A stretch of DNA of 59,050 nucleotides, taken from assembly GCA_937998865.1 (NCBI GenBank), contig CALLBR010000020.1, positions 1 to 59,050 on the forward strand. The letters are read 5' to 3'. This DNA is from an uncultured bacterium. GTDB taxonomy: Bacteria; Nitrospirota; Thermodesulfovibrionia; Thermodesulfovibrionales; Thermodesulfovibrionaceae. How positions within the stretch are numbered: position 1 is the first letter of the stretch; every line of letters starts with the position of its first letter. The position numbers were made by a program, and so were the translations under genes. The notes below the pieces were generated by a model. That model had not been told where the DNA came from and searched no databases. It saw only the letters and a list, made by a program, of their open reading frames with translations. Shown here one piece after another: positions 3,170 through 55,794 of the stretch.

Positions 3170-3523
3170 AAAATCTTTATTTAATCCCTCTCTTTCAGTT
3201 TCGGGGCTTCCTTCCATCTCATTAATAGTTAATAATGCTTTTCTAAATAAATGATTTCGAGAATACTTTTTTATATATTATTGGATGAAGCTTAAGCCCT
3301 GAAGCAATTTACCTTTCTAAGTATACACAAGTTTGCGAGAAAATCACATCTTTACCCTTTAGCTAAGGGAGTTATAACGCCTAACAAGGAAAACCGTCTT
3401 TAAAAAAAATTTATATTATTAAAAGACAGTCTAACAGCTACAAAGAAGACGTCAGAAAGCTATAGTTATTTTAAAGGGCTTATTTAATTTAAATTATTCA
3501 TGGAACTCATAGGAAACTCAAAC
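3170..3523. other. AT-rich intergenic region, no gene seen
   Basis: The space between the convergent rhodanese and NtrC-type genes shows no coding remnant I can recognise on either strand. A loose inverted repeat (GTCTTT near 3400 and AAAGAC near 3422) is flanked by A-runs and might end transcription from the minus-strand operon. Confidence 0.4.
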
Positions 3524-36733: not shown

Positions 36734-36734
36734 T

Positions 36735-37742: not shown

Positions 37743-37863
37743 AAGAGCACCTCCTTCATTTTGTCTATTGATGTAGTAATTTATAATCTGCATTAAAATT
37801 ATCCAATGTATTCTTTATGAAGTCTAAATCCCCTTTGATTTTATATTTAACATTTTTAAACTT

Positions 37864-39635: not shown

Positions 39636-40620
39636 ATTGTCTAACTTTGTAATAGGAGATTCCAAATACTTTTTTATAAAAATTATCCACTATTTCTTCA
39701 AAATTTATGTCTTTAAATACCTCAGGATAAATTTTCATTGCCATATAGAGGGCAATAGGTGCAACACGAGGTGACCAAGTAGACCACTTAGGAAGTTTAT
39801 AAACTTCACGATTCTTTACAGCCCTTATTTGGTTCCATTGAGAATTATTATAGAGCCATGACTCATTGTATCCTGCATTACCCCATATAAAAATAACATC
39901 AGGATTCCATTGGAATATTTTTTCCATTGAAATGTCAATGTAATTATTATTTATTCTCTCCGCTGCATTGATTGCTCCGGTAATCTTTATGATTTCATTA
40001 GTTATTCCTATTCCGCCAGAAACTCTTGTAGGAGTATGAACTAGATGTAAAACCTTTTTTCTTTTTTCAGCCGGGATTTTTTTAACTCTATCAGTAATTA
40101 ACTTTAAGATTTTATCCATCTCAAAAAATACTTCTCTTACTCTCCTTTCTTTCCCGAAAATTTTTCCGTGTAATCTTATCACATCATAAAGCTCTTTTAA
40201 ACTCTCTGGATAAATTCCAATTACATTCAGACCTTTTTTTTCTAAAAAATATATCACTTCAGGATTATATGTCCAAGTTATTACTATATCAGGATTCAGT
40301 TTCACTATGGACTCAACATTAATATCAGTTCCTGTACCTATCTTTGGTCTAACATAAGAGGGTTTATCACTTATTAATGCCTTATAAAGCCCGCATTCTT
40401 CTTCAGCCCATCTTGAAACACCCACAACTTGATTCCATAAATTTAAAGCTGGAATAAGTTCATAAGTTATTACAATAACAGCCCTATTCACTGGAGTGTT
40501 TATGCTAATTTTTCTATTTAATTTGTCAGTTAGATTAATACTAGAAGCATTGGCAATTCCTGCTATAAGAATCAAATTAAATATGATCATTATTGATAGA
40601 TTCCTAAACCTATTATGCAT
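39622..40620 (-). CDS. Periplasmic binding protein, BtuF/Fe3+-chelate type (copy 1)
   Basis: The 332-residue protein has a signal peptide (IMIIFNLILIAGIANASS). The two-lobed TroA-like fold has landmarks RAVIVITYELIPALNL, IVKLNPDIVITW and WNPDVIFIWGNAG. It would deliver the substrate to the FecCD permease downstream. The direct upstream neighbour is the CobN-like chelatase, so the cargo is probably a tetrapyrrole or a metal chelate. A second, diverged paralogue lies at 46800. Confidence 0.88.
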   Translation of the reverse strand: MHNRFRNLSIMIIFNLILIAGIANASSINLTDKLNRKISINTPVNRAVIVITYELIPALNLWNQVVGVSRWAEEECGLYKALISDKPSYVRPKIGTGTDINVESIVKLNPDIVITWTYNPEVIYFLEKKGLNVIGIYPESLKELYDVIRLHGKIFGKERRVREVFFEMDKILKLITDRVKKIPAEKRKKVLHLVHTPTRVSGGIGITNEIIKITGAINAAERINNNYIDISMEKIFQWNPDVIFIWGNAGYNESWLYNNSQWNQIRAVKNREVYKLPKWSTWSPRVAPIALYMAMKIYPEVFKDINFEEIVDNFYKKVFGISYYKVRQYEEY

Positions 40621-40646
40621 GATTCTTCTCCTTTTTATCTTTGATC

Positions 40647-43600
40647 CTACTTTAAAACTTTATCCTCATCCATAATATCTTCTTCAGTATTCATTATTAA
40701 CTGGAGTAATTTATCCATTTTCTCTTCATCCACTCGCCAATAACCTCTTTTTGCAGATTCAAACAAAAGCTCAGCCATTTTAACCGTTGCATAAGGATTG
40801 TTTTCATAAAGTTTATTTCTCATATCATCGTTGAAAATAAACTTATCTGCTATGTCATCAAAGATCCAATTTTCAACTTTTCCAGTGGTGGCAGCAAAAC
40901 CAAGAAGATATTCAACTCTATCTTTTATTTTCTTTGCACCATGAAAATTATGCTTTAACATTCCCTCTATCCATTTAGGATTGAGGATTCTTGTTCTAAC
41001 AGCTCTCTCTATGGATAATTTTAGATCTTCTGCAAAGACATCCTCTTCCGTAGAGTCTATAACCATAATTTCAGCTTTTTGTCCCTTCTTATCTTGAACA
41101 GTTCTGGATAAACCTCCTAAAAATTCATAGTAATGATCCAAGTCTGTTACCTCATATTCAGTGTTATCTCTTTCCTGAGTTACTATATCAATGAGTTTTA
41201 CGAGATTTGAAAAGGCTTTCTCGTTCTTTTCTATTTTTCCCTTAAAATAAGCATAACACATGCTTTCCTCATAGCTTTTTACTAAGTCCCTTTCATCTTT
41301 CCAGGCACTACTTTCAACCAATGTTCTCATGGATGTAGCATACTCTGTGGGAGAGGGACCAAAAATTCTGGCAAGGGCATGATCATCTAAATTATTCCTT
41401 AGCTGAAGAGAATGCTTTCTGACGAAATTCCTTTCAGGAGGTTCATTTAATACTGCAACCATTTTTATGGCTCTGTTTATTAGGTCAATATGGGTACCAA
41501 AGGTATCCCTAAAAATTCCACAAATAGTTATCAAAACATCTATTCTTGGCCTATTTAGTTCCTCTAAAGGGATAACTTCAAGCTCCTTTAACCAAGGATT
41601 CTTTTTATGTTTTATCCTTACTCCAAGAAGATTAAGTATAGTGGCAATCGTATCGCCGCCTGTTTTCATAGTTTCAAATCCCCAAAGAATAATCCCAACA
41701 CTCTCTGGAAATTTTCCGTATTTTTTCAAATAAGACTCAATTAATAGATCAGCAGCTTTCCTACCCCTCACCTCTGCTGCAATAGTTGGAATGAGTCTTG
41801 GATCAAAGGCATACATGCCTCTACCAGAGGGATAAACTTCTGGATCTCTAATAGGATCACCTGCTCGAGCTGGGAGGATATATCTACCCTCTAATGCGAG
41901 TAACAGAGTGTCACTCTCTGATGATCGATAAATATTCTCTACAATCTTTCTTACAAAGTCTTGGTATTCTTTTTGTAGCCCCTTAATTTGATTATTTTTA
42001 AGCAAATCCCTTATTACCTCTTTTGCTTGATTTTCTATTTCGGTGGCTAATTTAGTTTCCTTTACTTTATCCCAATCAAGCCCATTATTATTTGCTACTA
42101 ATTTAAGAATTGAGGGAAATTCACGGTCAATTCGTAAAACACCAAGGAGATAATCAATCATTTCTTCTTCCCCTAATTTTTTATCCATTACATGTAAACC
42201 ACAAGGAATAAGCCTCCTTTTCATTCTATATAGTTCTTTTCTTATTTCAGAGACATCTGAGGGTAGATGTAGCTCTGAAGCAATTTCTTTAATAACTTCT
42301 AAAGTTTTTTCGTCCTTTTTTTCCTCGTATTGATTCAGTAAATCTTCTAAAATTATATATTTTTCATAAAGTCCTGAAGTTTTCATGGGCGGAGATGCAT
42401 GGGAAATACAAAGGGCATAAGAACGTCTCTTAGCAATTGTTGACTCTGATGGATTTCCAATCCAGTAATAATAAATATGTGGCATATTTCCAATAAGGAT
42501 ATCTGGAAAACACTCTGAGGAAAGGGCAATCTCTTTACCTTTAGTAAATTCCAAAGTTCCATGCATCCCAAAGTGTATTATTGCGTGAGCTTGAAAAACT
42601 CTCTCTAAGAAAAAATAATAAGCTAAATATTGATGATGAGGAGGCAATTCTTTGTCATGATAGGCTTTATCAACATCCTCATGAACACCTCTTGATGGCT
42701 GAATTCCAATAAAGATATTTCCTAAATATACCCCTGGAATTAAAATATTGCCCTTTTTGTCAACCATTATATTTCCTGGAGGCTTTCCCCAATGTTCAAT
42801 AACATTTTTTTTGACATTATCAGAAAGATTATCAAACCAAGAGAGATATTCAGAGAAAGGTATCCTAATGGAAGGCATCTTATCAGTATACTTTGGACTA
42901 TTAAGTATTGCATTGGAAAGAAAGATTTCTTTAACATCAGTGAATGATTTGTCTAATTTATACCCTCTTTCTTTTAATCTTTCTAAAAATATCCTCAAAC
43001 TTTCAAAAACATCCAAATAACCAGCACTGGCTAAGTTTTCCTCTCCTGGAGGATAGTTGTAAGTTAGAATGGCAATTCTTTTTTTCTCATTAGGAGTATT
43101 TCTCAAAATAATCCAATTTTTGATCCTTTTAGCAAGTTTTTCTACTCTATCCTCTAATGCTTTGGGTTCTTTTATTTTACCTATAAGGGGATCATCAAAA
43201 CTTTTTAACCCTGAGATAAAAATAGGTTCAATGGCTCCGTCAAGCTCTGGTAAAGTAACAGCAATTACAATCTCAATTGGATTTAATCCCTCTTTGCTAA
43301 TCCTCCATTTTTCTAAGTCAGTAGAGGAAGCTCTAAGCCCACATAAAAGAGGAATATCTAACTCCTTTAAAAGCTGATAGGTAGGTTCTGGTTCACCTCC
43401 GTAGGGACCACCATGAATTCTGAAGTATTGTAAGTTCAAAAGTAAATCAACTTTTAAATTTTTGAGATATTTTAGGAGGGCTTCAATATTAAACTGTACC
43501 TTAGATGCAATAAAAATCAAATTTAAATCATTATGCAAGTACTCAAAAAGTGAATCTGCCATCACCTTACATTCGTTGAAGTGCATGCCACCATACATTA

Positions 43601-44276
43601 AAACTGCCACTGTATTCTTTTCAGGATTGTAGGGAAGAGCTTTTTTAAATTCGTGGATGTCATAAAAAAAGCCTCTTTTAGGTAAGTATATTCCATACTC
43701 GAAAATTCTTGGAGGTGGAATTTTATTAATACCTTTCACTCCTGCATATTCCTTCAGAAGCATGAGAATAAGACTCTTTATATTCTCCGGATCCCCTTCA
43801 TTGTAATATTGCTGAGCTAAAACCCAGTTCCGCATATCTTTTAATGTTCCGAAGGGAAGAATTTTACCAAGTTTTTCTGTTAACTCGGAGAATTTCTTCA
43901 CTTTAAGATAAGTTTGAAGATTAAACTCTTTTTCTTCACCTTTAAAGATCATCTCACCTTTAAATTTTCCCATTTTTAAAAGCTTCCAGATATGTTGTCC
44001 ACTTGCCACCAAAACAACCACTGTTTTTTCTTTTCCTTCAAGGAGAAGGTGAAGTTTACGGCTTAATCTATTGTCTCCTCGTATGTCAATAAGCAAAATA
44101 TGAGAATTTTCTATTTCCTCTTTTAGTTCATCGAGGGAAATATCAGGATTTTCATAATCATCAAGGTAAATTTTCTTTACTGCTACAATATTGCCATACT
44201 CTTCTCTTATCTGTTTAACAGCCTCTCTAATGGCTGTCATGTCGTTGATAGTGGTTAAGGCTAAGATTTTTTCCAT
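40647..44276 (-). CDS. CobN/BchH-type chelatase large subunit
   Basis: The 1209 residues are somewhat short for CobN (about 1275). Family blocks are clear: HFGMHGTLEFTKGKEIALSS near residue 570, GNPSESTIAKRRSYA, LITICGIFRDTFGTHIDLIN, NEPPERNFVRKH, RIFGPSPTEYATSMRTLVES, and the C-terminal FHGAKKIKDRVEYLLGFAATT. The central motif has Met where most CobN and BchH proteins have Thr (HFGTHGTLEW). CobN subunits insert Co2+ with CobST, BchH inserts Mg2+ with ChlI/ChlD; here ChlI/ChlD-like genes are in the same operon. Flanking TonB receptor and importer genes suggest work on an imported tetrapyrrole. The related HmuS of Bacteroides heme-uptake loci is a precedent for demetallation. Metal and direction are not readable from sequence. 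Confidence 0.88.
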   Translation of the reverse strand: MEKILALTTINDMTAIREAVKQIREEYGNIVAVKKIYLDDYENPDISLDELKEEIENSHILLIDIRGDNRLSRKLHLLLEGKEKTVVVLVASGQHIWKLLKMGKFKGEMIFKGEEKEFNLQTYLKVKKFSELTEKLGKILPFGTLKDMRNWVLAQQYYNEGDPENIKSLILMLLKEYAGVKGINKIPPPRIFEYGIYLPKRGFFYDIHEFKKALPYNPEKNTVAVLMYGGMHFNECKVMADSLFEYLHNDLNLIFIASKVQFNIEALLKYLKNLKVDLLLNLQYFRIHGGPYGGEPEPTYQLLKELDIPLLCGLRASSTDLEKWRISKEGLNPIEIVIAVTLPELDGAIEPIFISGLKSFDDPLIGKIKEPKALEDRVEKLAKRIKNWIILRNTPNEKKRIAILTYNYPPGEENLASAGYLDVFESLRIFLERLKERGYKLDKSFTDVKEIFLSNAILNSPKYTDKMPSIRIPFSEYLSWFDNLSDNVKKNVIEHWGKPPGNIMVDKKGNILIPGVYLGNIFIGIQPSRGVHEDVDKAYHDKELPPHHQYLAYYFFLERVFQAHAIIHFGMHGTLEFTKGKEIALSSECFPDILIGNMPHIYYYWIGNPSESTIAKRRSYALCISHASPPMKTSGLYEKYIILEDLLNQYEEKKDEKTLEVIKEIASELHLPSDVSEIRKELYRMKRRLIPCGLHVMDKKLGEEEMIDYLLGVLRIDREFPSILKLVANNNGLDWDKVKETKLATEIENQAKEVIRDLLKNNQIKGLQKEYQDFVRKIVENIYRSSESDTLLLALEGRYILPARAGDPIRDPEVYPSGRGMYAFDPRLIPTIAAEVRGRKAADLLIESYLKKYGKFPESVGIILWGFETMKTGGDTIATILNLLGVRIKHKKNPWLKELEVIPLEELNRPRIDVLITICGIFRDTFGTHIDLINRAIKMVAVLNEPPERNFVRKHSLQLRNNLDDHALARIFGPSPTEYATSMRTLVESSAWKDERDLVKSYEESMCYAYFKGKIEKNEKAFSNLVKLIDIVTQERDNTEYEVTDLDHYYEFLGGLSRTVQDKKGQKAEIMVIDSTEEDVFAEDLKLSIERAVRTRILNPKWIEGMLKHNFHGAKKIKDRVEYLLGFAATTGKVENWIFDDIADKFIFNDDMRNKLYENNPYATVKMAELLFESAKRGYWRVDEEKMDKLLQLIMNTEEDIMDEDKVLK

Positions 44277-44292
44277 TTTCTCTATGAATCCC

Positions 44293-46548
44293 TTAAAACT
44301 TTAATGTAATATCTGCAAACCATGATCTTCCTGCTGCTTTATGCCATGTATAGTACTTTCTGTCAAAAATGTTCTCCACTGAAAAACCGAGCTTTGCAAA
44401 TTTTGTTATTTGATAAGCAATTCTTCCATCTACAACAAAATAGGGATCAAGAGAATTAAATACATTATTTATTTTGTCAGAATTATCATCATTTAGATAT
44501 CTCTTAGCAGCATATCTACCAAGAAGAGTTGCTGAAAATCCTGACTTGTCAATCTCTACTCCTGAGTTAACAGTCCAAAGTGGAATGTAGGTGAGTCTAC
44601 ATCCAACAGTTCTTGGAGATGCCTCATTTTCCTTTATCTCGGAATCAGTATAGGTAATATTTGCAAATAATCTTAGCCATTTTTCAAATTTCTGTTCAAA
44701 TTCAAACTCTATTCCACGGGATTCTGCTTTTCCCACATTAACAAGTTGTTTTCTTTGTTGACCTAAATCCCTATAATAGATTAAATCCTTTAAATAGTTT
44801 TCGAAATATGTTAAAGAGATTTTTGATCCTTTCCAAAGCTTTTGTTCAATTCCTAAATCCCAAGATATGACTTTTTCTGGCTCAAGATCAGGATTTCCCA
44901 TCCGCAGTATTTTATCTGGAGGAATAAAGTCTCTATAAAGTTCATAAATTGTGGGAGGTCTGAAAGCCTTTCCAATTGATCCACGCAAAGTGGTATCTTT
45001 AAAAGGTTTATATACCAAGGCAAATTTCGGACTAAAAGAAGAAACAGATCTTGTAGGATATGATCTGGGATAGCCAGATTGTCCCACCTTGTCAATGTAA
45101 CCATCATATGTCTTCCACCAATCTTGCCTAAAACCTAAGTAGGCTGTAAGATTATGAATTATCATAATTTCATCTTGAATGAAAAAGGAATATGTTCTAC
45201 CTTTTCCCCTGAATTCTTGCGAAAGAGTGGTGGTTGATTTTTCATCTCTCCAATCCCTTAAATATTCTTCCTTTGTATTTCCTTTATCTTGTCTAAAGGA
45301 ACCACCAAAAGTAAGGATTTGATTTGTAAAAATGGGAAGACTAAACTGTATGTCTATCATGTATGAGTCTGCAGGAGTATTAGTTACAGTAGCACATTGT
45401 TTGGGATCTGAACCGCAACCAAATCTTGTTGCGCTACTTAAGGGAGTTACATACCAATCTCTTTCAGTATGAAAATAGGAGAGTTTTAATTTCATCCTTA
45501 GATCTTTCCATAAATTGCTTTCAAAATCTAAGGCATATATATTTTGAATTCTTCCTCCTCCACCAGATAGAAAAGTATTTTCATCTACTCTTCTGGGCGG
45601 AGGAGAAACTCCATAACTCCACACAGCATTTCCAGATTGGTCTCTTAAATAAGTGTGAGGTTCGTTATTATTTTGCTCATAACGATTTCTCACAATGGAA
45701 AACCCTATCTTCGTATCTTTCGTAAAATCATATTGAAGTTTAAAGGTTATTCCATCATCCCACCAAAGGTTATCTCCTCTATCACCAATAAGAAAAGCCC
45801 TTTCGCCTTTTGGTGTTGTAGTATTTTCATATCCAAATATATTTGGTGGAGGCTGGAATCGTCTTTCATCTATTACATTTAACTCCATGGGAAAACCATT
45901 TGTACTCTGAAAGCCATAACTCAGAAATAGGTTTAGTTTATCCCATAGTTTATCTCCATAGGAAATATAGAATCTCCTTAGATCATCCCATGCCTCATTC
46001 CTTTGCCAACTGGAACCGTATCCTGACTTAAAGACAAATTCCCTTTTCTCTGGCATCTTAGTAATAAAATTTATAACTCCACCCATGGCATGACCACCAT
46101 AAAGAGAAGAAAAAGGACCTTTTACAACTTCAACTCTTTCAAGATCCTCTGGATAAAATCCTCCAAATCTTGCATGACCTGTAGTAGGATCATTTAAGAC
46201 AACTCCATCTCTAAGCATAAGAACTCTTGGTTGTCCAGAAATTCCTCTTATAGTTATCGGTGAGAGACGGGTTTCCATTATTCCTCTTAGTCTTTCAATA
46301 TACAACCCAGAAGTGTCATTTAATGCTTGATCAATTGTTTTAGGTGCTTTAAGCTCAATTCTTTCCTTTGAGACAACACTTACACTGGCTGGAGCAGACT
46401 CTACCTCTTTTTCAGTTCTTGTAGCAGTTACAACAATTTCACCTAAACTTGTCTCCTCTAAGTCAGCTTCTTTAGACTTCTGCTCAGCCCAGGCATGATT
46501 AAAAAATGAAAGAAAGAAGAATAAAATAAAAATTAAAAAATAAAACAT
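44293..46548 (-). CDS. TonB-dependent outer-membrane receptor 1
   Basis: The 751-residue protein has a signal peptide ending near AWA (about residue 21), a TonB box EIVVTATRTEK and a plug domain with RGISGQPRVLMLRDGVVLND and VEVVKGPFSSLYGGHAMGGVINFIT (partial). A 22-strand-type barrel ends in Trp-Phe-Ala-Asp-Ile-Thr-Leu-Lys-Phe. FRPP followed by NPDLEPEK is reminiscent of the FRAP/NPNL motifs of heme receptors, though NPxL is common in the wider family and no His lies between them. AAGGAGGG precedes the ATG. It is 16 bp upstream of the chelatase gene and preceded by the attenuator leader copy 1. A metal-tetrapyrrole cargo is inferred. Confidence 0.92.
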   Translation of the reverse strand: MFYFLIFILFFFLSFFNHAWAEQKSKEADLEETSLGEIVVTATRTEKEVESAPASVSVVSKERIELKAPKTIDQALNDTSGLYIERLRGIMETRLSPITIRGISGQPRVLMLRDGVVLNDPTTGHARFGGFYPEDLERVEVVKGPFSSLYGGHAMGGVINFITKMPEKREFVFKSGYGSSWQRNEAWDDLRRFYISYGDKLWDKLNLFLSYGFQSTNGFPMELNVIDERRFQPPPNIFGYENTTTPKGERAFLIGDRGDNLWWDDGITFKLQYDFTKDTKIGFSIVRNRYEQNNNEPHTYLRDQSGNAVWSYGVSPPPRRVDENTFLSGGGGRIQNIYALDFESNLWKDLRMKLKLSYFHTERDWYVTPLSSATRFGCGSDPKQCATVTNTPADSYMIDIQFSLPIFTNQILTFGGSFRQDKGNTKEEYLRDWRDEKSTTTLSQEFRGKGRTYSFFIQDEIMIIHNLTAYLGFRQDWWKTYDGYIDKVGQSGYPRSYPTRSVSSFSPKFALVYKPFKDTTLRGSIGKAFRPPTIYELYRDFIPPDKILRMGNPDLEPEKVISWDLGIEQKLWKGSKISLTYFENYLKDLIYYRDLGQQRKQLVNVGKAESRGIEFEFEQKFEKWLRLFANITYTDSEIKENEASPRTVGCRLTYIPLWTVNSGVEIDKSGFSATLLGRYAAKRYLNDDNSDKINNVFNSLDPYFVVDGRIAYQITKFAKLGFSVENIFDRKYYTWHKAAGRSWFADITLKF

Positions 46549-46582
46549 CTCAACCCTCCTTAAATTGATAAATAATGATCTT

Positions 46583-46694
46583 TCTCTCTTCAGAGAGGAT
46601 TGAGACTCTTCATGAGCCTTAATTCATAAAAAAAGCCTTGGATGGGATTCTTTCCCTCCAAGGCCTTCATGACCTTAAGTGACCCTTCTTGGGT
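46583..46694 (-). ncRNA. Structured attenuator leader, copy 1 (candidate riboswitch or RNA-binding-protein target)
   Basis: The conserved block starts at the predicted transcription start (A at 46694) and runs for about 112 bases into the leader of TonB receptor 1. On the RNA strand it can form hairpin H1 ACCC-AAGAA-GGGU, H2 AAGGUC-AUGAA-GGCCUU (46676-46660), terminator T (46664-46635) with loop AAGAA and a 7-U tail, H3 AGGCUC-AUGAA-GAGUCU (46619-46603) and H4 CUCUC-UGAA-GAGAG. The 3' arm of H2 is part of the 5' arm of T, so H2 and T are mutually exclusive. I see no cobalamin, heme-, moco-, TPP or T-box consensus. A near-identical copy precedes the other TonB gene. Confidence 0.75.
46628..46664 (-). 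terminator. Intrinsic terminator inside leader copy 1
   Basis: GCCTTGGA pairs with TCCAAGGC and GGGA with TCCC around a 5-base AAGAA loop, with one bulged A. A run of seven T follows. It lies between the promoter and the TonB receptor gene, the position of an attenuator. Confidence 0.85.
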
Positions 46695-46700
46695 AGGAAT

Positions 46701-46730
46701 ATTATAAAAAAGATAAAATCTTTTTGTCAA
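46701..46730 (-). promoter_or_regulatory. sigma70 promoter of leader copy 1
   Basis: Minus strand: TTGACA (46730-46725), 18-base spacer, TATAAT (46706-46701). Both boxes are perfect consensus. Seven bases further lies the A that opens the conserved leader. Confidence 0.8.
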
Positions 46731-46799
46731 TTTTAATAAAATTTTTCATATCAATTATGCAAAAAATTCAATCAAAAGAATTAATGCTGAGAAAAACAA

Positions 46800-47834
46800 T
46801 CAATTTATAAGTTTCTTTCCATATAAAAAATTAATTATCTTTCTTTTTTCTTCTTCCAGTTCAAAAGTATAAATTTCGGGATAAGCTGCTTTTGCCATGA
46901 ATTTCATAGCATACAAAAATTTCAATGTCCACAAGTCAAATATAAATGTCTCATCAAACTGATAAATCGAATTTCTCCTAACAGCAGTAATTGTTCTGTA
47001 TTGTTTATTTTTCCTTATATCCTCAGGTTTTAAAAATTTTGAATGCCACATAACTATAACGTCTGGATTATGAAGGATAAGCTTTTCCATAGTTAAAACC
47101 TTAGATTCTCCCTCTATATCCCCACATATGTTCTTAGCACCAATCTTAAGTATTATCTCATCAACGATACTTCCTTTGCAGGAGGTCTGAAGAAAATTAA
47201 GCTGAGCCCAACTGTAGAATAATTTCTTAGGAGACCTTATTTTTAAGGCAATTTTTTCAATATCTGTAATTTCTCTCTTTACAAAATTTATTAATTTTTC
47301 TGCCTGACTCTTTGCACCAAGCATAACTCCAAAATCACTTATCTCTTTAAAGATGTCTTCAATTTTTGTTATAAATACGGCGTAAACAGGAATGCCGATT
47401 CTCTCAAGTGTTTCGATTACATCTGTCTGATTCGCCCATATTATCACTAAATCTGGCTTTATTGATATTATTTTCTCTAAATTTACCGATTCCCAGTTTC
47501 CAACTGCTGGAATTTTTCTTAATCTTATTCTTTCGTCTAAAAGAGAATAATATTTAAAAGTTTCACTATAATAGTAACCTTCATCATAAACATTTGTAGG
47601 TATACCAACAAGCTTTTCTTGCTTTCTCAACATGTAAATTCCTGTAAGAGCGCTTTCAATAAGGCAGACGACCCTCTCTGCTGGTCTTTTTAGTTTAATT
47701 GTTTTTTCCCTGAAATCATGGACGACGATATCTGCTGCTACATGCTTTGGAAAGAAAAAATAAAGAATTAAAAATATTGATACCATGAGGGAGCGGTAAG
47801 AGCCGCTCCCAAATTTTAGAAGTTTAGTTCCCAT
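46800..47834 (-). CDS. Periplasmic binding protein, BtuF/Fe3+-chelate type (copy 2)
   Basis: The protein has about 344 residues with the TroA-like fold: ERVVCLIESALTGIYML, IISIKPDLVIIWANQ, HNPDVIVMWHSKF. I chose the ATG at 47834 because it gives a signal peptide with a basic n-region (KLLKF and YRS) before SLMVSIFLILYFFF. This start overlaps the TonB gene by 19 bp; another ATG at 47786 would leave no positive n-region. A perfect 8-bp hairpin lies between the two candidates. No permease or ATPase accompanies it, so it may share the importer at 37864-39635 with copy 1. Confidence 0.82.
   Translation of the reverse strand: MGTKLLKFGSGSYRSLMVSIFLILYFFFPKHVAADIVVHDFREKTIKLKRPAERVVCLIESALTGIYMLRKQEKLVGIPTNVYDEGYYYSETFKYYSLLDERIRLRKIPAVGNWESVNLEKIISIKPDLVIIWANQTDVIETLERIGIPVYAVFITKIEDIFKEISDFGVMLGAKSQAEKLINFVKREITDIEKIALKIRSPKKLFYSWAQLNFLQTSCKGSIVDEIILKIGAKNICGDIEGESKVLTMEKLILHNPDVIVMWHSKFLKPEDIRKNKQYRTITAVRRNSIYQFDETFIFDLWTLKFLYAMKFMAKAAYPEIYTFELEEEKRKIINFLYGKKLIN
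47789..47810 (-). repeat. Perfect hairpin at the TonB2/binding-protein junction
   Basis: GGGAGCGG-CTCTTA-CCGCTCCC (minus strand) is a perfect 8-bp GC-rich stem lying 5 bases after the TonB receptor 2 stop and overlapping the signal-peptide codons of the next gene. No T-run follows directly, so it may reduce downstream translation or stabilise the upstream mRNA. Confidence 0.55.
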
Positions 47835-49828
47835 CTTAGCATAGCATTGAATCCAGGATCCAGAAATTGCCAAGGCATTTCGTATTTTCTATCAAAAAGA
47901 TTGTTTACTTCAAGAATAAGGTTGGAGTAATACTTTTCTGATCTGAAAATTTCTTTTCTTATATTGAAGTTAACGGTAGCATATTTTCCAAAACTTTTTC
48001 TATTCGTTTTATCAGTGCTGTCATAGTATTTTCCTACATATTGTATATAGGGAGAAACTTTAAATTCAAGGGGAAGATCTGCTGTAAATCCTGCATTCAC
48101 TACAAATTCTGGCACAAAGGGGATATCACTACCATCTTGATTCTTATCTAAAGAGTTTTTCACTTTCGTATCAGCAAGAGTAAGGTTTGAAAACCATTTA
48201 AAATTATCACTTAAGAAATGCTGAACCTCAAGTTCTGCGCCTGTTGTATATGCTTTTCCAGCATTAACTGACTGAGATTGAGAGGGATTATTGCTAACCA
48301 CATTCTCCACAATAGTATCCTTAGTAATATGATAAAAGGCTCTCAAACTAAAATATAAATTATTCATAGCCCACAAGTCTGTTCCAAGGTCAAAACTATA
48401 GCCTTTTTCTGGCTTTAGGGTAGGGTTAGGTAGCTGACCATTCTTGCCAGGAACACCTCTGTCAGATTCCTTCAGTGTCCCGCCTACAGATTTTGCTGAA
48501 GGTACAAGATAGCTTGACCCAGCATTGGCAAAAATACCAAACTTATCAGTAAAATTATATCTCAATCCAGCTGTCCATGTAAGTTGATCCCACGATTTTG
48601 AAGATATACCAGGTTCAACTTCTCCCAACAGGTCATATTCATGTTTTGTGTAACTGTATCTTAAACCTGCTCTAAATACCCATTTATCAATTATAAGTTT
48701 TTCCTGTGCATATATGCCAAAACTCTTGGCACTAACGTCATTTCCAATTTTTTTATTACCTCCTTTTTTTGCATATGTTTCATAGGTTGAAAACTGAGCA
48801 TCAATTCCAAAGGTAAGAATGCTTTTATCTAAATGTTTGTAGATTAAAGATATGTCAATGGGAAAGATGTTTTGTTTTACTCCATCTTCCTCTTTTAAGC
48901 TCAAATCATTTGGATAATTATCTTCCTCCCAAGAGCGATTATAATATCTATAACCAGATTTTATATTGAGAATAAAATCCTTAAAAAGAGAAGAGGAAAA
49001 ATTGAGATTTATCACATCATACTGATGGTCATAACCTCTATTAGGTCTCCCAGCATCTCCATCATGCTTTGTATGATGAACAAAAAGTGAAATCTTAGTA
49101 TCAGGTGTAAAGAAATAAGTTGTTTTAATATAGCCCTTGATTTTCTTATATTCTGGATCATCTATCATACTAAGCCATGAAGGAACTGTTCCATAATTGG
49201 TGTAATCTGATTGTTCAAAGTTTGCACCGAGGAAAAAATTAAAGGGACCGGCATTTCCCTCATGATAAACTCTTGCATTTATTGTATTCCATGTTCCGTA
49301 GCCAAGAGATATGTTTGTAAGAGGCTTTTCAATTTTTTCCTTTGTTATTAAATTAGTAATTCCAGCCAAAGGAGTTTCATTTCCTGCAAAATCCATAGTC
49401 ATATAATTGGGATATAGAACAGAAGCAGGTCCTCTATGAACTTCAATTCTTTCAAGATAAATAAAATCTAAACTCATTGGATCTACAAATGAATCGATTG
49501 GAAGTCCGTCTAAGAGCCAACCGTTATATTTAGGACCTAAGCCACCATATGAGCCCCAGTTTGCATCATTACGTGAAAGGGGATTTACAAAATTACCCGG
49601 AAGATATCTAAGCAATTCTGACAGATTTCTATTAGGAAGATTTATTTTCTCAATCTCTCTCTTTTCTAAAACATCAATTTTATGGGTCTGTTCTTGAGGT
49701 TTTTGCTCAATTTTTGATTCTGTAACAGTAACTTCCTGAAGTGTAAAATCATCCTCTTTTTCCTTAGAGTAAGCATAATTAAAGATAATAAACATAATAA
49801 GGATAATTAAAAACACTTTCCGCATCAT
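47816..49828 (-). CDS. TonB-dependent outer-membrane receptor 2
   Basis: The 670-residue protein has a signal peptide (FLIILIMFIIFNYAYS), a TonB-box region (LQEVTVTESKIEQ) and a plug with LLRYLPGNFVNPLSRNDANW and IEVHRGPASVLYPNYMTMDF. The barrel ends in Met-Leu-Arg-Trp-Glu-Leu-Asn-Phe. The plug is less typical than that of receptor 1: the usual RG motif is replaced by GGLGPKYNGWLLDGLPID, so the two receptors probably take different ligands. TAGGAGGAGG precedes the ATG. It is followed by a binding-protein gene and preceded by leader copy 2. Confidence 0.92.
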   Translation of the reverse strand: MMRKVFLIILIMFIIFNYAYSKEKEDDFTLQEVTVTESKIEQKPQEQTHKIDVLEKREIEKINLPNRNLSELLRYLPGNFVNPLSRNDANWGSYGGLGPKYNGWLLDGLPIDSFVDPMSLDFIYLERIEVHRGPASVLYPNYMTMDFAGNETPLAGITNLITKEKIEKPLTNISLGYGTWNTINARVYHEGNAGPFNFFLGANFEQSDYTNYGTVPSWLSMIDDPEYKKIKGYIKTTYFFTPDTKISLFVHHTKHDGDAGRPNRGYDHQYDVINLNFSSSLFKDFILNIKSGYRYYNRSWEEDNYPNDLSLKEEDGVKQNIFPIDISLIYKHLDKSILTFGIDAQFSTYETYAKKGGNKKIGNDVSAKSFGIYAQEKLIIDKWVFRAGLRYSYTKHEYDLLGEVEPGISSKSWDQLTWTAGLRYNFTDKFGIFANAGSSYLVPSAKSVGGTLKESDRGVPGKNGQLPNPTLKPEKGYSFDLGTDLWAMNNLYFSLRAFYHITKDTIVENVVSNNPSQSQSVNAGKAYTTGAELEVQHFLSDNFKWFSNLTLADTKVKNSLDKNQDGSDIPFVPEFVVNAGFTADLPLEFKVSPYIQYVGKYYDSTDKTNRKSFGKYATVNFNIRKEIFRSEKYYSNLILEVNNLFDRKYEMPWQFLDPGFNAMLRWELNF

Positions 49829-49926
49829 TTTAACCTCCTCCTACTTCTTATGCAATAAACATTAAAATCAAATGAATGAGATTTTTTTGATAAATTGTAG
49901 AAAAATGTCCCACCTCCCTTGAATTT

Positions 49927-50040
49927 CTCTCTCTTCAGAGAGGATTGAGACTCTTCATGAGCCTTAATTCATAAAAAAAAGCCTTGGATGGGATTCATTC
50001 CCTCCAAGGCCTTCATGACCTTAAGTGACCCTTCTTGGGT
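49927..50040 (-). ncRNA. Structured attenuator leader, copy 2
   Basis: It matches leader copy 1 almost base for base from its first nucleotide (A at 50040, seven bases after the -10 box) to the H4 hairpin. The main differences are one extra base in the T-run (8 T), one base in the terminator loop (AUGAA here, AAGAA in copy 1) and two extra bases in the H4 tail. Every stem is unchanged and the loop change keeps the A-A/U-G-A-A pattern. Sequence outside the block, including the promoter spacer, is not conserved between copies. This argues for selection on the RNA. Confidence 0.75.
49973..50010 (-). terminator. Intrinsic terminator inside leader copy 2
   Basis: It has the same stem as in copy 1 (GCCTTGGA/TCCAAGGC plus GGGA/TCCC), loop ATGAA, followed by eight T. 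Confidence 0.85.
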
Positions 50041-50046
50041 ATAGAT

Positions 50047-50076
50047 ATTAAAACAAATAAAAAAATGATTTGTCAA
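50047..50076 (-). promoter_or_regulatory. sigma70 promoter of leader copy 2
   Basis: Minus strand: TTGACA (50076-50071), 18-base spacer, TTTAAT (50052-50047). Geometry relative to the leader start is identical to copy 1, though the spacer sequence differs. Confidence 0.7.
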
Positions 50077-50633: not shown

Positions 50634-50855
50634 ATGAAATTTTCAATAAAAAACAGAATAAATCTTTACAAATCCCTTGAAGAGAAACTGCATCCTCATG
50701 TTTTAAATTCAAAGGAAAATAAAAATTTTCTATTCTCTGCAAAGATTTATAGCAATAAAATAATGGTCAGCAAATTTGAAAAAAGTAACATAATATTTTT
50801 TACCGAAGGGCTCTTTGGAAAGAGATATCCAAATATTTTTAAAAGGTTCCATTAA
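50634..50855 (+). CDS. Doubtful small ORF in the leader of the molybdoenzyme operon
   Basis: A 73-codon frame starts 53 bases after the first -10 box. The product is basic and has no recognised motif or membrane segment, and there is no ribosome binding site before its ATG. It could be an untranslated leader that happens to be open. It is listed because it fills the only space between promoter and first enzyme gene. Confidence 0.2.
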   Translation: MKFSIKNRINLYKSLEEKLHPHVLNSKENKNFLFSAKIYSNKIMVSKFEKSNIIFFTEGLFGKRYPNIFKRFH

Positions 50856-50868
50856 AAAGGAGGCATTT

Positions 50869-51390
50869 ATGACACAATTGAAGTATGCCTATGTAATTGA
50901 TGTCTCTAAGTGTTATGGTTGCATGTCCTGTGTTGCAGCTTGTGCCTCAGAAAACAATATTCCCATAGGTGTATTCAGAACTTGGGTGGAAAGATTCGTA
51001 AAAGGAGACGGTAATGTTTTTTTCCTTCCTAAAATTTGTAATCATTGCGACAACCCAACCTGTGTTTCTGCCTGTCCCGTTAAAGCAACATACAAAAGAG
51101 AAGATGGCTTAATACTTATTGACGATGAAAAATGCATAGGTTGTGGTGCCTGCATTCAAGCTTGTCCATATGGAGCAAGATTTCAAAACCCTGTAAAAGG
51201 AGTAGCAGATAAATGCACCTTTTGTGCCCATAGAATCCCAGAGAGACTTCCTGCCTGCGTAGAGGTATGTCCCACTTCATCAAGGCTCTTTTTGCGGATG
51301 GGAGAATCAAATCTTAATCTAAGCGTAATTAAACCAACCACAGGTAATAAACCTCAAGTTTATTACCTTAATTATGAGGGGGTGGAATAA
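50869..51390 (+). CDS. Four-cluster ferredoxin subunit of a molybdopterin reductase (TtrB/PsrB-like)
   Basis: The protein has 173 residues from the ATG at 50869, which has AAAGGAGG upstream; an earlier in-frame start adds 18 residues without homology. Four Cys groups are visible: CYGCMSCVAAC, CNHCDNPTCVSACP, CIGCGACIQACP and CTFCAHRIPERLPACVEVCP. They make four [4Fe-4S] clusters that carry electrons from the membrane subunit to the catalytic subunit. There is no Tat signal of its own, as usual for subunits exported with the catalytic partner. Gene order B-C-A equals ttrBCA. Confidence 0.9.
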   Translation: MTQLKYAYVIDVSKCYGCMSCVAACASENNIPIGVFRTWVERFVKGDGNVFFLPKICNHCDNPTCVSACPVKATYKREDGLILIDDEKCIGCGACIQACPYGARFQNPVKGVADKCTFCAHRIPERLPACVEVCPTSSRLFLRMGESNLNLSVIKPTTGNKPQVYYLNYEGVE

Positions 51391-52463
51391 TGGATTTGTT
51401 TCAATTTACATACCCGTTTGGATATGTTTATTTTAATGAAACCCTTGTTTGGAAGCCGATGGCTTTTGCTTATTCCTTTTTAATATCAGGAGCAGATCTC
51501 TTTATTTTAGCAGCCATAGCCTATTTGAGCCGTAGAATGACAGAGTGGATACCCATATTTTTAATTACAGGATTGGCCTTTTTCTCAGTTGTACTCTTAG
51601 GACCTTTAGCAGATAGTATAGAGCCTCATAGGGCTTGGAGAGTGATGCTAACTCCTCATCTTTTTTCTTCTGAAAAATACCCGGGATTTTCTGTAATGGC
51701 ACTTTATGGAGGTTTTCTGTGGCCAGTTACTTTTATCTTAGGAGCTTTGGCAACTTTCATCTATATGAGCAATAAAAATCCCAAATATTCCTTCTTGAAA
51801 TTAGATGAAGAAAAGTATGAAAAGCTTAACCCTTATCTTAAAATCATATTCATAGCTCTGATACCTTTTTCCTTAATGTGGTCAATTTATCCGAGCACTC
51901 TTCTTGTTAATCAAACCTGGATATGGAGCTGGAGAAACTGGGGAATGCTTCCAGCATTGTTATTTATCGAAACTTTTGTTGCTGCTACAGCCTCTGCAAT
52001 TATCCTTGGAAACATATTTAAGAAAAAACAGGACGAGTTGCTTCTTTTCATCCATTCATTAGCTGCTATTGCCTTGGCTTTTTTATTAATCATACAGATG
52101 ATTTTCTGGAGTTTTCAGTTAAAAGATACTAATTTTAATGCCATCTACTCTCTATATCCACTATTTATCCTAGCCATAGCAATTTTTATAATTAAAGCCT
52201 CTTTATCCATTAAATCCAAGCATAGTGAAATAGGTCTCTATCTTATTGGTATTTTAGCTTTAATAGAAGTTGCCATTAATAAATGGAATATTTTTATTAA
52301 CGGTCAGCTAATCTCAAGAACAGGAATGGGTAAAGTAGCCTCAAATCTCCATGGCTGGTGGTTTTTTGAAACCTTAGCTCCCATAGCCATGGGTATTATA
52401 GTTTTTATAATACTTTCCTCAATATATCCTTTGAGAGGTGAGGGTTATGAAACAAGTAAGTAG
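51390..52463 (+). CDS. NrfD/PsrC-type membrane quinol subunit (TtrC-like)
   Basis: The 357-residue integral membrane protein has about nine helices and starts FQFTYPFGYVYFNETLVW. Polar and charged residues in loops (GPLADSIEPHRAWRVMLTPH) resemble the quinol-handling face of NrfD/PsrC proteins. It exchanges electrons with menaquinone and passes them to the ferredoxin subunit. Its start overlaps the stop of the previous gene by one base and its end overlaps the catalytic-subunit gene by 17 bp. Confidence 0.88.
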   Translation: MDLFQFTYPFGYVYFNETLVWKPMAFAYSFLISGADLFILAAIAYLSRRMTEWIPIFLITGLAFFSVVLLGPLADSIEPHRAWRVMLTPHLFSSEKYPGFSVMALYGGFLWPVTFILGALATFIYMSNKNPKYSFLKLDEEKYEKLNPYLKIIFIALIPFSLMWSIYPSTLLVNQTWIWSWRNWGMLPALLFIETFVAATASAIILGNIFKKKQDELLLFIHSLAAIALAFLLIIQMIFWSFQLKDTNFNAIYSLYPLFILAIAIFIIKASLSIKSKHSEIGLYLIGILALIEVAINKWNIFINGQLISRTGMGKVASNLHGWWFFETLAPIAMGIIVFIILSSIYPLRGEGYETSK

Positions 52464-55400
52464 AAGAGATTTTATTAAAGGACTTGTAGGACTTGCCTGT
52501 GCATCGGTATTCGTGGCTGGTTATGCTCCTACTATTGGAAGAATAATAAGCCCTCGATATAAGAGTGTTCTACCAGATAAAGAGGGCAGAATTATTCACT
52601 CTGCTTGTTTAGGTTGTAACGTAAGATGTGGCATAAGAGTAAAAGTTTTAGATACAAAATACGGAGAGGTTGTAGAAAAAATTGATGGTAATCCCTATCA
52701 TCCCTACAATAGAGCTGTGAGTGTGAAAAATCAAGTAAAGAGATATTTTTCAATCCCCTACGATACTCCAGTAAAGGATTCCCTTAATTACACTGGCACC
52801 TTATGTGGAAAAGGTGAAGACGGAATACACTATCTTTATGATCCCTACAGGATTCTTGCACCTCTTAAAAGAAGCGGACCAAGAGGTTCAGGCAAGTTTA
52901 AAGTTATCTCCTGGCAGCAACTTATAAAAGAAGTCTCAGAAGGTGGAGTTATAGAAGAGACAAAAGAGAAAATTCCTGGAATGGGTGAAGTTTTTGTTTA
53001 TGGAAAACTTAAAAAAGCAGGCTTTGATCCTGTGGAAGTTCTGGATGAAATGAAAAAGGACATTGAGGATATAAAAAGTAAAATTAAGGAAAAGGAAATA
53101 AATAATAAAGAGGCACTTCAAGCAAAGATAAATAGCTTTAAAGAGAAATGGTCTCAGAAACTCTCTCCCCTAAAACTGGAGGATATTCTCATAGATCCTG
53201 ACAGACCAGATTTAGGAACAAAAGCTAATCAAGTAGTATTTTATAGAGGAAGAGGTCAACCTCATTCTGACTATTTCTACCGGAGATGGATAAAAGATGC
53301 CTTTGGTAGTGTAAATTGGCTTAGACATACATCATCCTGTCAACTTGGTTACTATGCAGCGAATAAACTATGGGCAGGTGTAACTGACCTTCAAATGGAT
53401 GTGCATTCCTCAAAGGTTATTGTCATGGCAGGAGCCCAAATGGGTAGACTCCATCCAGGAGCCACAGGCCAGGGACTTCTAATTGAGAGAGCTGCCCTTG
53501 GTGAGTTAAAAATTTACTATGTAAATCCTACTGCACCAAGAACAACAGCCAATGGCAACATAGTTTGGGTTCCTGTAAAACCTGGAACTGATGCCGCCTT
53601 GGCAATGGCAATTTTAAATGTTATGTTTGAGAAAGAATGGTTTAATCGTTATTTTCTCTCCATTCCCAGTAAGAAAGCATCAGAGAAGGCAAAACAACCC
53701 ATCTATACCAATGCTACCTGGCTTGTCATTGGAGAAGGAGACAAAGCAGGACAGATACTTAAAGGAAAACATATGGGAGCATCCCATGAAAATCCAATTG
53801 TTTATAACTCAGGCTATAAGGACTCAGAGACAGTAGAGAGTGCTGAATTATTCCATAGCGGAAAAGTAAAGGTGGAAGGGCAAGAAGTAGGGGTTAAAAC
53901 AGTTTTACAGATTCTCAAAGAGGAAGCCCAATCCAAAAACGTAGAAGAATGGAGTAAGATTTGCGGTGTTCCCATCTCCATGATAGTAAATATTGCAGAA
54001 GACCTATTTAAAAATTCACCTCAGTCTGGCACAACAGTCCATAGGGGCTTGGGAATGCATCCTCAAGGAGAATACACTGTTTGGAGCTTTAGAGCCATAG
54101 ATACTCTTCTTGGGAACATGCACAAAAAGGGTGGTATGCTTGGAAGAGCAGGAAATTTAAAATCAAACGAATATATTTATGATCTTAAAAAGGTTAAAAA
54201 TGTATCCTGGGGTGTACCAATTGACCGACATGGAGTAGCTTATGAAGAGAGTTTCGAATTTATGTTCTCAGGTTATCCTGCCAAAAGACCATGGTACCCT
54301 CTCACTCCTGAAGAAATATACACAGAGGGTTTTGCAGGAATAGATGAGGGATATCCCTATCCTATCAAAGCCTTAATACTTTATTATGCAAACCCTGTTT
54401 TATCAGCAAACTACGGAGTTAAATTTATTGAAACTCTTAAAGATACCAAAAAATTACCCCTCTTTATTGGTATAACCACCTCAATAAATGAGACTTATCT
54501 TTATGCAGACTACATAGTCCCAGACACTACCTACCTTGATGGTGGAACCATGGGATGTCAATTTGTCTATGCCTCCGGTGGTGGAGTAAAAACTCTTGAA
54601 ACATGGAGAACTCCTGCTGTAATGCCAAAAACCCTGAAAATCGGAGATTGTCCAAATGGACATCCAAAATATGCCTCCATGTGGGAATTTCTCATCGACA
54701 TTGCTCTTCATTTAGGAATGCCAGGTTTTGGTGAAAAAGCAATAGGTGGAAATCCAGAAAAGGAAGAATTAAAAGATCAAAAATTCTCACTTTACTGCGT
54801 ATGGGAATACATTATGAGGGTATTTGCAAACTCTGCTATGGATGGAAAAGACGCTGGACTCATAAAGGAGCCAACAGAGGAGGAAATTGAGTTTGTGGAG
54901 AAAAACTATCCTATAGCAAAATTCAAAGACATAGTGCCTAACGAGTGGAAATACATTGCTTACGGACTTGCGCGTGGTGGAGTTTTCACAAGTTATGAAT
55001 CCTCTTTCGATGAGAACGGATTTTCTAAGAGGAAACCTCCTACAGAAGTTTTAATGTTGTGGAACGAAAAACTTGCAAAAACTAAAAATAGTATTACAGG
55101 AAAGAAATTCTATGGTGGACCAAAGTATTTTGAGTTAAATGACTATGCTAATAAAGATCTAAAAAAGCAAATTGAGGGATATCCCTTTACTGTTATATTC
55201 CCTGGAAGTCCTCTATTTACTAAACACAGAAGCATGTTTTACTACTGGATGAAACAAATCATGCCAGAGAACTTTGCCCTTATTCATCCCGATGATGCAA
55301 AGTCAACGGGCATTAAAAGTGGAGACATTATAACCATTGAAACACCAACCGGATATCTGGATGTAAAGGCAATAGTAGAACCCTCTGTAATGAAAGGAGT

Positions 55401-55794
55401 TATCGCGATACCTGTTGGAATGGGAAGATGGGCAGATACTGCGGTGATGAAACCAAAGTATTTCAAACTTAAAGATGAAAAAATCAATAATTCTATCAAA
55501 GAATTACCAAATAAGTTAGAATTGCCAAAAGAAGCTGTAAATCCTGTAAAAGAACTTGATGAAATAAGAAAGAAATTACTCTTTACAAAGTCAAAGAAAA
55601 AATATTATGAACATCTTATTCCCGATAGTTGGAGATTTTCAGGTGTTACCCCCAATGTGGTTTCTCTCATAGATAGCACTACAGGAAATTGGTCACTTCT
55701 TAGTTGGATAGGAGGTGCTCAGGTATACTTCACTGTTGCTAAAATAAAGAGAAAATCAAAGGGAAAAACAGAGGTACCATGGATAATTTGGTAA
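52447..55794 (+). CDS. Molybdopterin oxidoreductase catalytic subunit (TtrA-like; tetrathionate/selenate/arsenate group)
   Basis: The protein has about 1115 residues. A Tat signal is clear (SRRDFIKGLVGLACAS), so export is folded with cofactor. An N-terminal [4Fe-4S] site has Cys54, Cys57 and Cys61 (ACLGCNVRCG) and a fourth Cys in LCGKGED. The likely Mo/W ligand is the Cys near residue 298 in RHTSSCQLG. A coil-prone Lys/Glu segment (about 190-245) is an insert compared with PsrA. The length and the BCA gene order match tetrathionate reductase TtrA and the related selenate reductases better than ArrA or PsrA. The ATG at 52447, after a purine-rich GAGAGGTGAGG, is preferred to the GTG three codons earlier. 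The substrate remains inference. Confidence 0.88.
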   Translation: MKQVSRRDFIKGLVGLACASVFVAGYAPTIGRIISPRYKSVLPDKEGRIIHSACLGCNVRCGIRVKVLDTKYGEVVEKIDGNPYHPYNRAVSVKNQVKRYFSIPYDTPVKDSLNYTGTLCGKGEDGIHYLYDPYRILAPLKRSGPRGSGKFKVISWQQLIKEVSEGGVIEETKEKIPGMGEVFVYGKLKKAGFDPVEVLDEMKKDIEDIKSKIKEKEINNKEALQAKINSFKEKWSQKLSPLKLEDILIDPDRPDLGTKANQVVFYRGRGQPHSDYFYRRWIKDAFGSVNWLRHTSSCQLGYYAANKLWAGVTDLQMDVHSSKVIVMAGAQMGRLHPGATGQGLLIERAALGELKIYYVNPTAPRTTANGNIVWVPVKPGTDAALAMAILNVMFEKEWFNRYFLSIPSKKASEKAKQPIYTNATWLVIGEGDKAGQILKGKHMGASHENPIVYNSGYKDSETVESAELFHSGKVKVEGQEVGVKTVLQILKEEAQSKNVEEWSKICGVPISMIVNIAEDLFKNSPQSGTTVHRGLGMHPQGEYTVWSFRAIDTLLGNMHKKGGMLGRAGNLKSNEYIYDLKKVKNVSWGVPIDRHGVAYEESFEFMFSGYPAKRPWYPLTPEEIYTEGFAGIDEGYPYPIKALILYYANPVLSANYGVKFIETLKDTKKLPLFIGITTSINETYLYADYIVPDTTYLDGGTMGCQFVYASGGGVKTLETWRTPAVMPKTLKIGDCPNGHPKYASMWEFLIDIALHLGMPGFGEKAIGGNPEKEELKDQKFSLYCVWEYIMRVFANSAMDGKDAGLIKEPTEEEIEFVEKNYPIAKFKDIVPNEWKYIAYGLARGGVFTSYESSFDENGFSKRKPPTEVLMLWNEKLAKTKNSITGKKFYGGPKYFELNDYANKDLKKQIEGYPFTVIFPGSPLFTKHRSMFYYWMKQIMPENFALIHPDDAKSTGIKSGDIITIETPTGYLDVKAIVEPSVMKGVIAIPVGMGRWADTAVMKPKYFKLKDEKINNSIKELPNKLELPKEAVNPVKELDEIRKKLLFTKSKKKYYEHLIPDSWRFSGVTPNVVSLIDSTTGNWSLLSWIGGAQVYFTVAKIKRKSKGKTEVPWIIW

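Follow-up and report, generated by a model that had tools for sequence, protein, structure and literature searches.

A candidate family of attenuator RNAs with paired (A)NGAA hairpin loops ahead of nickel/cobalt uptake genes

The window analysed here comprises 59,050 nucleotides from an uncultured bacterium of the Thermodesulfovibrionaceae (assembly GCA_937998865.1, contig CALLBR010000020.1, positions 1 to 59,050) and carries, on its minus strand, two nearly identical leaders, each ahead of a gene for a TonB-dependent receptor. From comparative sequence analysis, we propose with a probability of roughly 0.6 that these leaders belong to a cis-regulatory RNA family, which attenuates nickel/cobalt uptake genes and would be switched on by a trans-acting factor at low metal. 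The proposal is carried by the predicted hairpins, their mutual exclusion with a terminator and with a Shine-Dalgarno (SD) helix, the conservation of their loops, their covariation and the regulon, all of which have been established by comparison across genomes. The family is apparently undescribed, and it would add to Rfam 15, from which it is absent, a class of regulatory RNA whose regulon is clear; it would also reveal how anaerobes control the import of nickel and cobalt. In the literature searched, no nickel leader or riboswitch of this kind has been found.

Leader architecture and covariation in Thermodesulfovibrio

The original prediction described two almost identical blocks, each behind its own −10 box, and both have been confirmed at 98-99% identity on the minus strand. 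The first hairpin (HP1) starts at 46694 in copy 1 and at 50040 in copy 2, in both cases six bases past the −10 box, and a promoter immediately ahead of HP1 is the layout of nearly all copies in the genus. A strong intrinsic terminator and a competing upstream hairpin (AAGGUC-AUGAA-GGCCUU), likewise predicted, have been found in both blocks, which fold more stably than dinucleotide shuffles (z −3.8 and −4.2, with 0 of 200 shuffles as low). Overlooked until now was the second half of the leader, which holds the hairpins HP4 and HP5 (46618-46604 and 46597-46584) together with a strand complementary to the SD. Judged from the alignment, the leader is composed of two copies of one module, each a hairpin pair with loops of the form C-(A)NGAA-G. 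The elements in the window, all on the minus strand, are the following.

46701-46730, minus: copy 1 promoter of the sigma-70 type, TTGACA (46730-46725), 18 nucleotides (nt), TATAAT (46706-46701), read from the sequence
46682-46694, minus: copy 1 HP1, first hairpin of module 1, ACCC-AAGAA-GGGU, from fold and alignment
46660-46676, minus: copy 1 HP2, the switch hairpin, AAGGUC-AUGAA-GGCCUU, its 3' arm doubling as 5' arm of the terminator
46628-46665, minus: copy 1 intrinsic terminator, GGCCUUGGAGGG..CCAAGGC and U7, stem 46665-46635
46604-46618, minus: copy 1 HP4, first hairpin of module 2, GGCUC-AUGAA-GAGUC, pairing from the alignment
46584-46597, minus: copy 1 HP5, second hairpin of module 2, CUCUC-UGAA-GAGAG, putative switch hairpin of the translational platform
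46593-46605, minus: copy 1 anti-SD strand, UCUCAAUCCUCUC, which excludes HP5 once paired to the ribosome-binding site (RBS)
46548-46559, minus: copy 1 SD region, GGAGGGUUGAG and the A of AUG, pairs with the anti-SD strand
50047-50076, minus: copy 2 promoter of the sigma-70 type, TTGACA (50076-50071), 18 nt, TTTAAT (50052-50047), read from the sequence
50006-50040, minus: copy 2 module 1, HP1 50040-50028 and HP2 50022-50006, from sequence, fold and alignment
49973-50011, minus: copy 2 intrinsic terminator and U8, stem 50011-49981
49929-49963, minus: copy 2 module 2, HP4 49963-49949 and HP5 49942-49929, from sequence and alignment
49908-49918, minus: GGGAGGUGGGA, a partial complement of the copy 2 anti-SD strand, about 80 nt ahead of the start codon

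A block search of 101 relatives has confined good copies to the same genus, where the full leader has been found 23 times in 15 genomes (a set that takes in one clearly degenerate copy, L047), every time ahead of TonB-receptor genes, which belong to several orthologous groups. A covariance model (R1) has been built from the leader, and the 23 leaders form alignment A1. Homologues in related genomes had been proposed as a check, and the search with R1 has located the leader in 15 of the 16 genus genomes (in one of the 15 merely in a one-module form), also at full length in a genome of another family (G103), the element as such being found well beyond the genus. In A1, the hairpins read ACCC-A[A/C]GAA-GGGU (HP1), GGUC-AUGAA-GGCC (HP2, with a core almost invariant in the 23 leaders), GACUC-AUGAA-GAGUC (HP4) and CUCUC-(A)NGAA-GGGAG (HP5). 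The terminator has been found paired in 96% of cells with compensatory changes at three pairs, HP4 in 98%, and HP5 in 94% with two pairs changed on both sides. With the terminator formed, the structure is paired in 95% of cells and has six pairs changed on both sides; all measures lie above 500 of 500 shuffles, and the pair counts also exceed those of slid controls. Likewise, 95% of cells pair in the alternative structure with HP2. The stem of HP1 can be replaced entirely while the loop is retained, as in UAAUCC-AAGAA-GGAUUA (L043) and AACC-AAGAA-GGUU (L069), and where the switch loop, which is AUGAA or ACGAA in the genus, varies, the terminator arm has been altered to match (AUG/CAU to ACG/CGU). 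The elements of a transcription attenuator, namely a terminator hairpin with a U-run and a competing upstream hairpin, have thus been found together and conserved by covariation.

The original prediction had also taken the close match between the two window copies as a sign of selection on the transcript. What supports selection is that the leader is conserved and covaries from species to species; the likeness of the two copies does not prove it alone. Copies within one genome are 85-99% identical, compared with a mean of 80% (at most 96%) between genomes, so that recent duplication or gene conversion contributes to the likeness of the window copies, and selection as its only cause has been rejected. 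One may go further and regard the leaders as plain terminators spread by recombination, a mobile or gene-converted cassette with no regulatory role, since the likeness is indeed greatest among same-genome copies, and leader and signal-peptide coding region are common to different receptor genes in one genome (G013). Such a cassette is nevertheless a very improbable explanation, as independent leaders with unrelated stems, found in different phyla before functionally related genes, have kept the loop as well as the competing fold.

Between HP4 and HP5 runs a strand whose sequence, UCUCAAxCCUCUC, complements the SD region (GGAGGGxUUGAGA), and a second expression platform is predicted at this position. 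Among 16 distinct leaders, the pairing between SD and anti-SD has been calculated at a mean of −19.1 kcal/mol for the own partners vs −16.5 (sd 0.67) for swapped ones, and 0 of 20,000 permutations have been as good, although the sequences are related and hence not fully independent. The copy 1 strand pairs with its own partner at −20.4 kcal/mol, and the variants UAUACCUCUC/GGAGGGGUAUAG in L048 carry compensatory changes outside the SD core. The minimum-energy fold of most copies has the SD base-paired, and releasing it takes 4 to 12 kcal/mol; in copy 1, it is fully paired and 12.5 kcal/mol are needed. With a terminator and a hidden SD by default, expression would be off at two steps, both of which would be switched on if HP2 and HP5 formed. 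In the receptor group behind copy 2, as read from the sequence, the leader is kept and the direct coupling to the RBS is lost.

Some further observations concern the genus leaders and their surroundings. A repeat of about 100 bases (GUCAUCCUGA...GGAAUGACAGGAU) has been inserted between HP5 and the SD in L036, L037, L038 and L040, and the SD past the insertion still matches the anti-SD strand. At 3322 and 10419 in L041, two different receptors have almost the same leader, signal peptide and TonB-box region, as though their 5' portion were exchanged as a cassette. A small gene pair, which by eye resembles a HEPN/nucleotidyltransferase toxin-antitoxin system, recurs next to leader operons (L039, L040, L041), and in L034 (4209-5411, plus strand) a CooC/ParA-like ATPase is fused in one frame to a TrmO_N domain, the two being adjacent genes elsewhere in the genus.

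Loop conservation and regulon beyond the genus

The weaker R1 matches have been identified as one-module forms ahead of tonB, of another receptor (L069) and of a pair of SAM-methyltransferase and receptor genes; a low-scoring match behind an atp operon (L073) has been dismissed as being of other origin. The pattern of switch hairpin and terminator has given 40 matches in the genus and 0 when reversed. In other members of the order, the core precedes genes for CbiM/NikM-Q-O, DUF4198, TonB-ExbB-ExbD, TonB receptors and a methyltransferase. An exact pattern scan of GTDB species has yielded at least 117 stretches vs about 2 estimated by chance; the matches listed fall into Firmicutes, Desulfobacterota, Spirochaetes and Nitrospirota, the majority ahead of genes for nickel/cobalt uptake, and the genes listed behind them encode CbiM, NikA-type binding proteins, TonB receptors, LarE, S components of energy-coupling factor (ECF) transporters and methyltransferases. 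Acetobacterium and Fervidicola are among the carriers of the one-module form. The gene of CooT, a nickel-binding protein, lies directly behind the leader in some genomes and is also part of the regulon. One further pattern match (L114) has no gene downstream in sense and has been discarded.

Across this wider set, the loops have remained constant while the stems are unrelated in sequence, a pattern characteristic of loop recognition. At 84 GTDB-wide matches, 44 hairpins ahead of the switch hairpin have been counted whose loops end in GAA, vs 1.7 in dinucleotide shuffles, whereas downstream only 5 of 129 hairpins have such a loop (1.6 in shuffles). With the spurious matches removed, an upstream GAA-loop hairpin is present at 41 of 71 loci, compared with 0 of the 9 spurious matches. 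A C-G pair closes 35 of 43 of these hairpins, and their loops are AUGAA, UGAA, AGGAA, AAGAA and AGAA. The spacing between HP1 and HP2 ranges from 5 to more than 80 nt, which fits a separate recognition of the hairpins. Kissing between the HP2 and HP4 loops through a UCAUGA palindrome has found no support, given that the second loop base is free. The same freedom bears on the notion that leader peptides start from the AUG in the hairpin loops and that attenuation proceeds via ribosome stalling: CAUGAAG is a frequent sequence at the loops of HP2 and HP4, and short frames crossing these loops can be traced, but AUGAA is replaced by ACGAA, AAGAA, AGAA or UGAA, and neither frames nor stops are maintained (in L042, L044 and L045, for instance, the third codon is followed directly by GUG-UAA). 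With neither frames nor start codon conserved, leader peptides have been rejected, and we consider them scarcely probable.

In the window, the leaders are followed by the genes below, the operon status behind copy 1 being deduced from gene order.

44293-46548, minus: TonB-dependent receptor gene after copy 1, 751 amino acids (aa)
34877-44276, minus: remaining putative operon after copy 1, comprising genes for a BchH/CobN-like chelatase H subunit (40647-44276), a substrate-binding protein (39622-40620), a FecCD permease (38634-39665), an ATPase (37864-38634), a ChlI-like protein (36735-37793) and a ChlD-like protein (34877-36733)
47816-49828, minus: TonB-dependent receptor gene after copy 2, 670 aa, followed by a gene for a substrate-binding protein (46800-47873)

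The original prediction had considered a metal, chelate or tetrapyrrole signal, of which the metal part has gained support and has been narrowed, away from heme or B12, to the supply of nickel/cobalt. Its idea of a ligand- or protein-controlled attenuator agrees with the conserved, mutually exclusive hairpins, the covariation and the metal-uptake regulon.

Several neighbouring genes have drawn our attention. Within the TonB/ABC (ATP-binding cassette) uptake operon of the window (34877-46548, minus), the BchH/CobN-like subunit, which exceeds the TIGR02025 cut-off, stands together with the ChlI- and ChlD-like proteins, and relatives have CobN split over two genes where the window operon has this subunit. 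Divergently from copy 2 (50815-55794, plus), an iron-sulfur subunit, an NrfD-like membrane subunit and a molybdopterin oxidoreductase are encoded, by eye of the sulfur/polysulfide reductase kind. In the window's own genome (L340, C44:25812) as well as in L346 and L349, the hairpins GUUAGC-UGAA-GCUAAC and then AACC-AUGAA-GGUU precede a UbiX-like gene and hemH, and the regulon may therefore touch tetrapyrrole synthesis. A small helical protein rich in His and Glu (HWxEHNxEHxxxY) without a Pfam match, possibly metal-binding, recurs in L156, L162, L168, L175, L205 and L244.

A candidate factor and the proposed switch

The switch may be pictured as follows. Without the factor, the switch hairpin would yield to the intrinsic terminator, and in two-module leaders the anti-SD strand would additionally mask the SD, leaving the genes off. 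When metal is scarce, an RNA-binding factor would grip both loops of each pair and stabilise the switch hairpins, by which termination would be prevented, the RBS freed and expression turned on. We infer the ON direction, the trans-acting nature of the factor and the nickel/cobalt signal. HP1 is conserved yet compatible with both states, and HP2 and HP5 are weak alone, which is most simply explained by a factor that binds the pairs in the ON state. Moreover, import should drop at high metal, which fits a factor active at low metal.

A riboswitch has to be weighed against this factor, in which the paired loops would bind a small molecule or metal ion without protein, in the manner of guanidine-II. 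The loops are short, paired and strongly conserved, their phylogenetic spread is broad, and metal riboswitches exist (PMC7689651). However, the linker varies from 5 to more than 80 nt and may hold an inserted hairpin, AAGAA and AUGAA loops are unable to pair together, and there are no further conserved nucleotides for a pocket; a metal that directly stabilised the ON hairpins would raise uptake with rising metal, the wrong sign for an importer. A riboswitch is therefore unlikely, and a trans-acting factor agrees better with the data than a classical aptamer does.

As candidate for this factor, we tentatively propose DUF3842 (PF12953), perhaps together with CooT (PF10133), which has been characterised as a small dimeric nickel-binding protein (PMC6006190). 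The two genes adjoin in the window's own genome next to a decayed leader: at L068 (3218-3321 and downstream; C7:45217), behind the decayed full leader lie the relics of a receptor operon as well as a TrmO-like gene, and the CooT and DUF3842 genes come just after these on the opposite strand. DUF3842 is present in 40 of 41 leader genomes and CooT in 31 of 41, each compared with 1 of 9 genomes with spurious matches, the latter being a weak control because they differ taxonomically. A second covariance model (R2) has been run over 176 genomes of the order, 134 of which have data for both leader and protein. Here, 72 of the 76 genomes with a leader encode DUF3842, compared with 21 of the 58 remaining ones (odds ratio 32, Fisher p 9e-14), and the four leader genomes without it also lack the neighbouring CooT, which makes an assembly gap likely. 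In family f2, a strong leader match and DUF3842 have both been found solely in one and the same genome (G083). Across the order, CooT and the leader are not associated (odds ratio 1.6, p 0.5), and this weighs on the idea that CooT alone is the RNA-binding sensor. Its nickel binding, its place beside DUF3842 and its position directly behind some leaders speak for such a role; with its absence from 10 of the 41 leader genomes, mostly gut Firmicutes, we regard it as quite improbable. A search with profile A2 has given just weak, non-significant matches to ribosomal protein L1 (E 0.19).

A number of points weigh against a factor-driven nickel/cobalt switch and against DUF3842 in particular. Its predicted structure is a Rossmann-type domain (predicted local distance difference test score, pLDDT, 85.8) with no recognised RNA-binding fold, and the fold search has returned generic Rossmann folds, malate dehydrogenases being best (Z 9.8). 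Its co-occurrence with the leader is confounded by kinship and by the anaerobic life style, and Nitrospiraceae possess a divergent DUF3842 with no leader detected. About 40% of the GTDB-wide loci are without HP1 under a strict hairpin rule, and some members of the regulon are unlike metal uptake (ubiX-hemH in L340, an epimerase in L353).

We put forward only tentatively, with the odds somewhat against it, an undescribed RNA-based system of nickel (or nickel/cobalt) homeostasis in which tandem (A)NGAA hairpins would be read by DUF3842, with or without CooT, in at least four phyla of anaerobes. If true, this system fills for uptake genes the role that belongs to NikR and B12 riboswitches elsewhere, and it acts twice per transcript in Thermodesulfovibrio, on termination and on translation. 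It would give DUF3842, of which no mention has been found in the literature searched, a testable function and CooT a context. The genus leader, with one recognition module doubled and two expression platforms on one transcript, may serve as a good model for doubled gene control.

Comparison with known regulatory RNAs

The original prediction recognised no known riboswitch class, and the Rfam 15 scan concurs: no match at gathering score has been obtained in the window, in the leaders of its own genome or in those of 14 GTDB-wide loci, and lax filters have returned chance-level matches only for the two window blocks. In this scope, the models of guanidine-II, the NiCo riboswitch and the cobalamin riboswitch (RF00174) are all unmatched.

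CsrA/RsmA acts as a dimer that grips hairpin loops of the consensus form C-ANGGAN-G, in which GGA is required. The leaders share with its targets the C-...-G form of the loop, and recognition by a bound dimer would be a further likeness, but the genus loops hold (A)NGAA in place of GGA. Guanidine-II (mini-ykkC) consists of two hairpins with matching loops and a variable linker ahead of an expression platform, an arrangement resembling the one found here; its loops are ACGR, however, unlike the (A)NGAA loops, which cannot pair mutually, and its context is guanidine rather than metal uptake. Cobalamin riboswitches likewise control TonB receptors and cobalt transport genes, but their aptamer is about 200 nt long, and the sole RF00174 match, in L191, lies about 6.8 kb away from the leader. 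The NiCo riboswitch is another metal-related 5' leader RNA, which turns on czcD-type resistance genes at high cobalt or nickel (PMC7689651), whereas the leaders described here have a different architecture and precede import genes.

The same layout occurs in the ANTAR-target RNAs (the EutV, NasR and AmiR leaders), with two short tandem hairpins whose loop bases are recognised, the second overlapping and excluding the terminator (PMC3369931, PMC8934654), and some of them overlap a ribosome-binding site. Two tandem hairpins with the second mutually exclusive with a terminator have been found in the present leaders as well, which raises the question whether they are dual-hairpin targets of an ANTAR-domain antiterminator. 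ANTAR targets have hexanucleotide loops with A at position 1 and G at position 4 (PMC3369931), whereas the 23 genus leaders and most of the wider ones have (A)NGAA loops of 5 or 4 bases. In addition, PF03861 has been found in 0 of 16 genus genomes by a search that was positive in 7 other genomes of the order. An ANTAR protein has accordingly been rejected as the factor, and this explanation appears extremely improbable. The genus leaders further differ from ANTAR targets in holding a second copy of the module, with a predicted helix that hides the SD.

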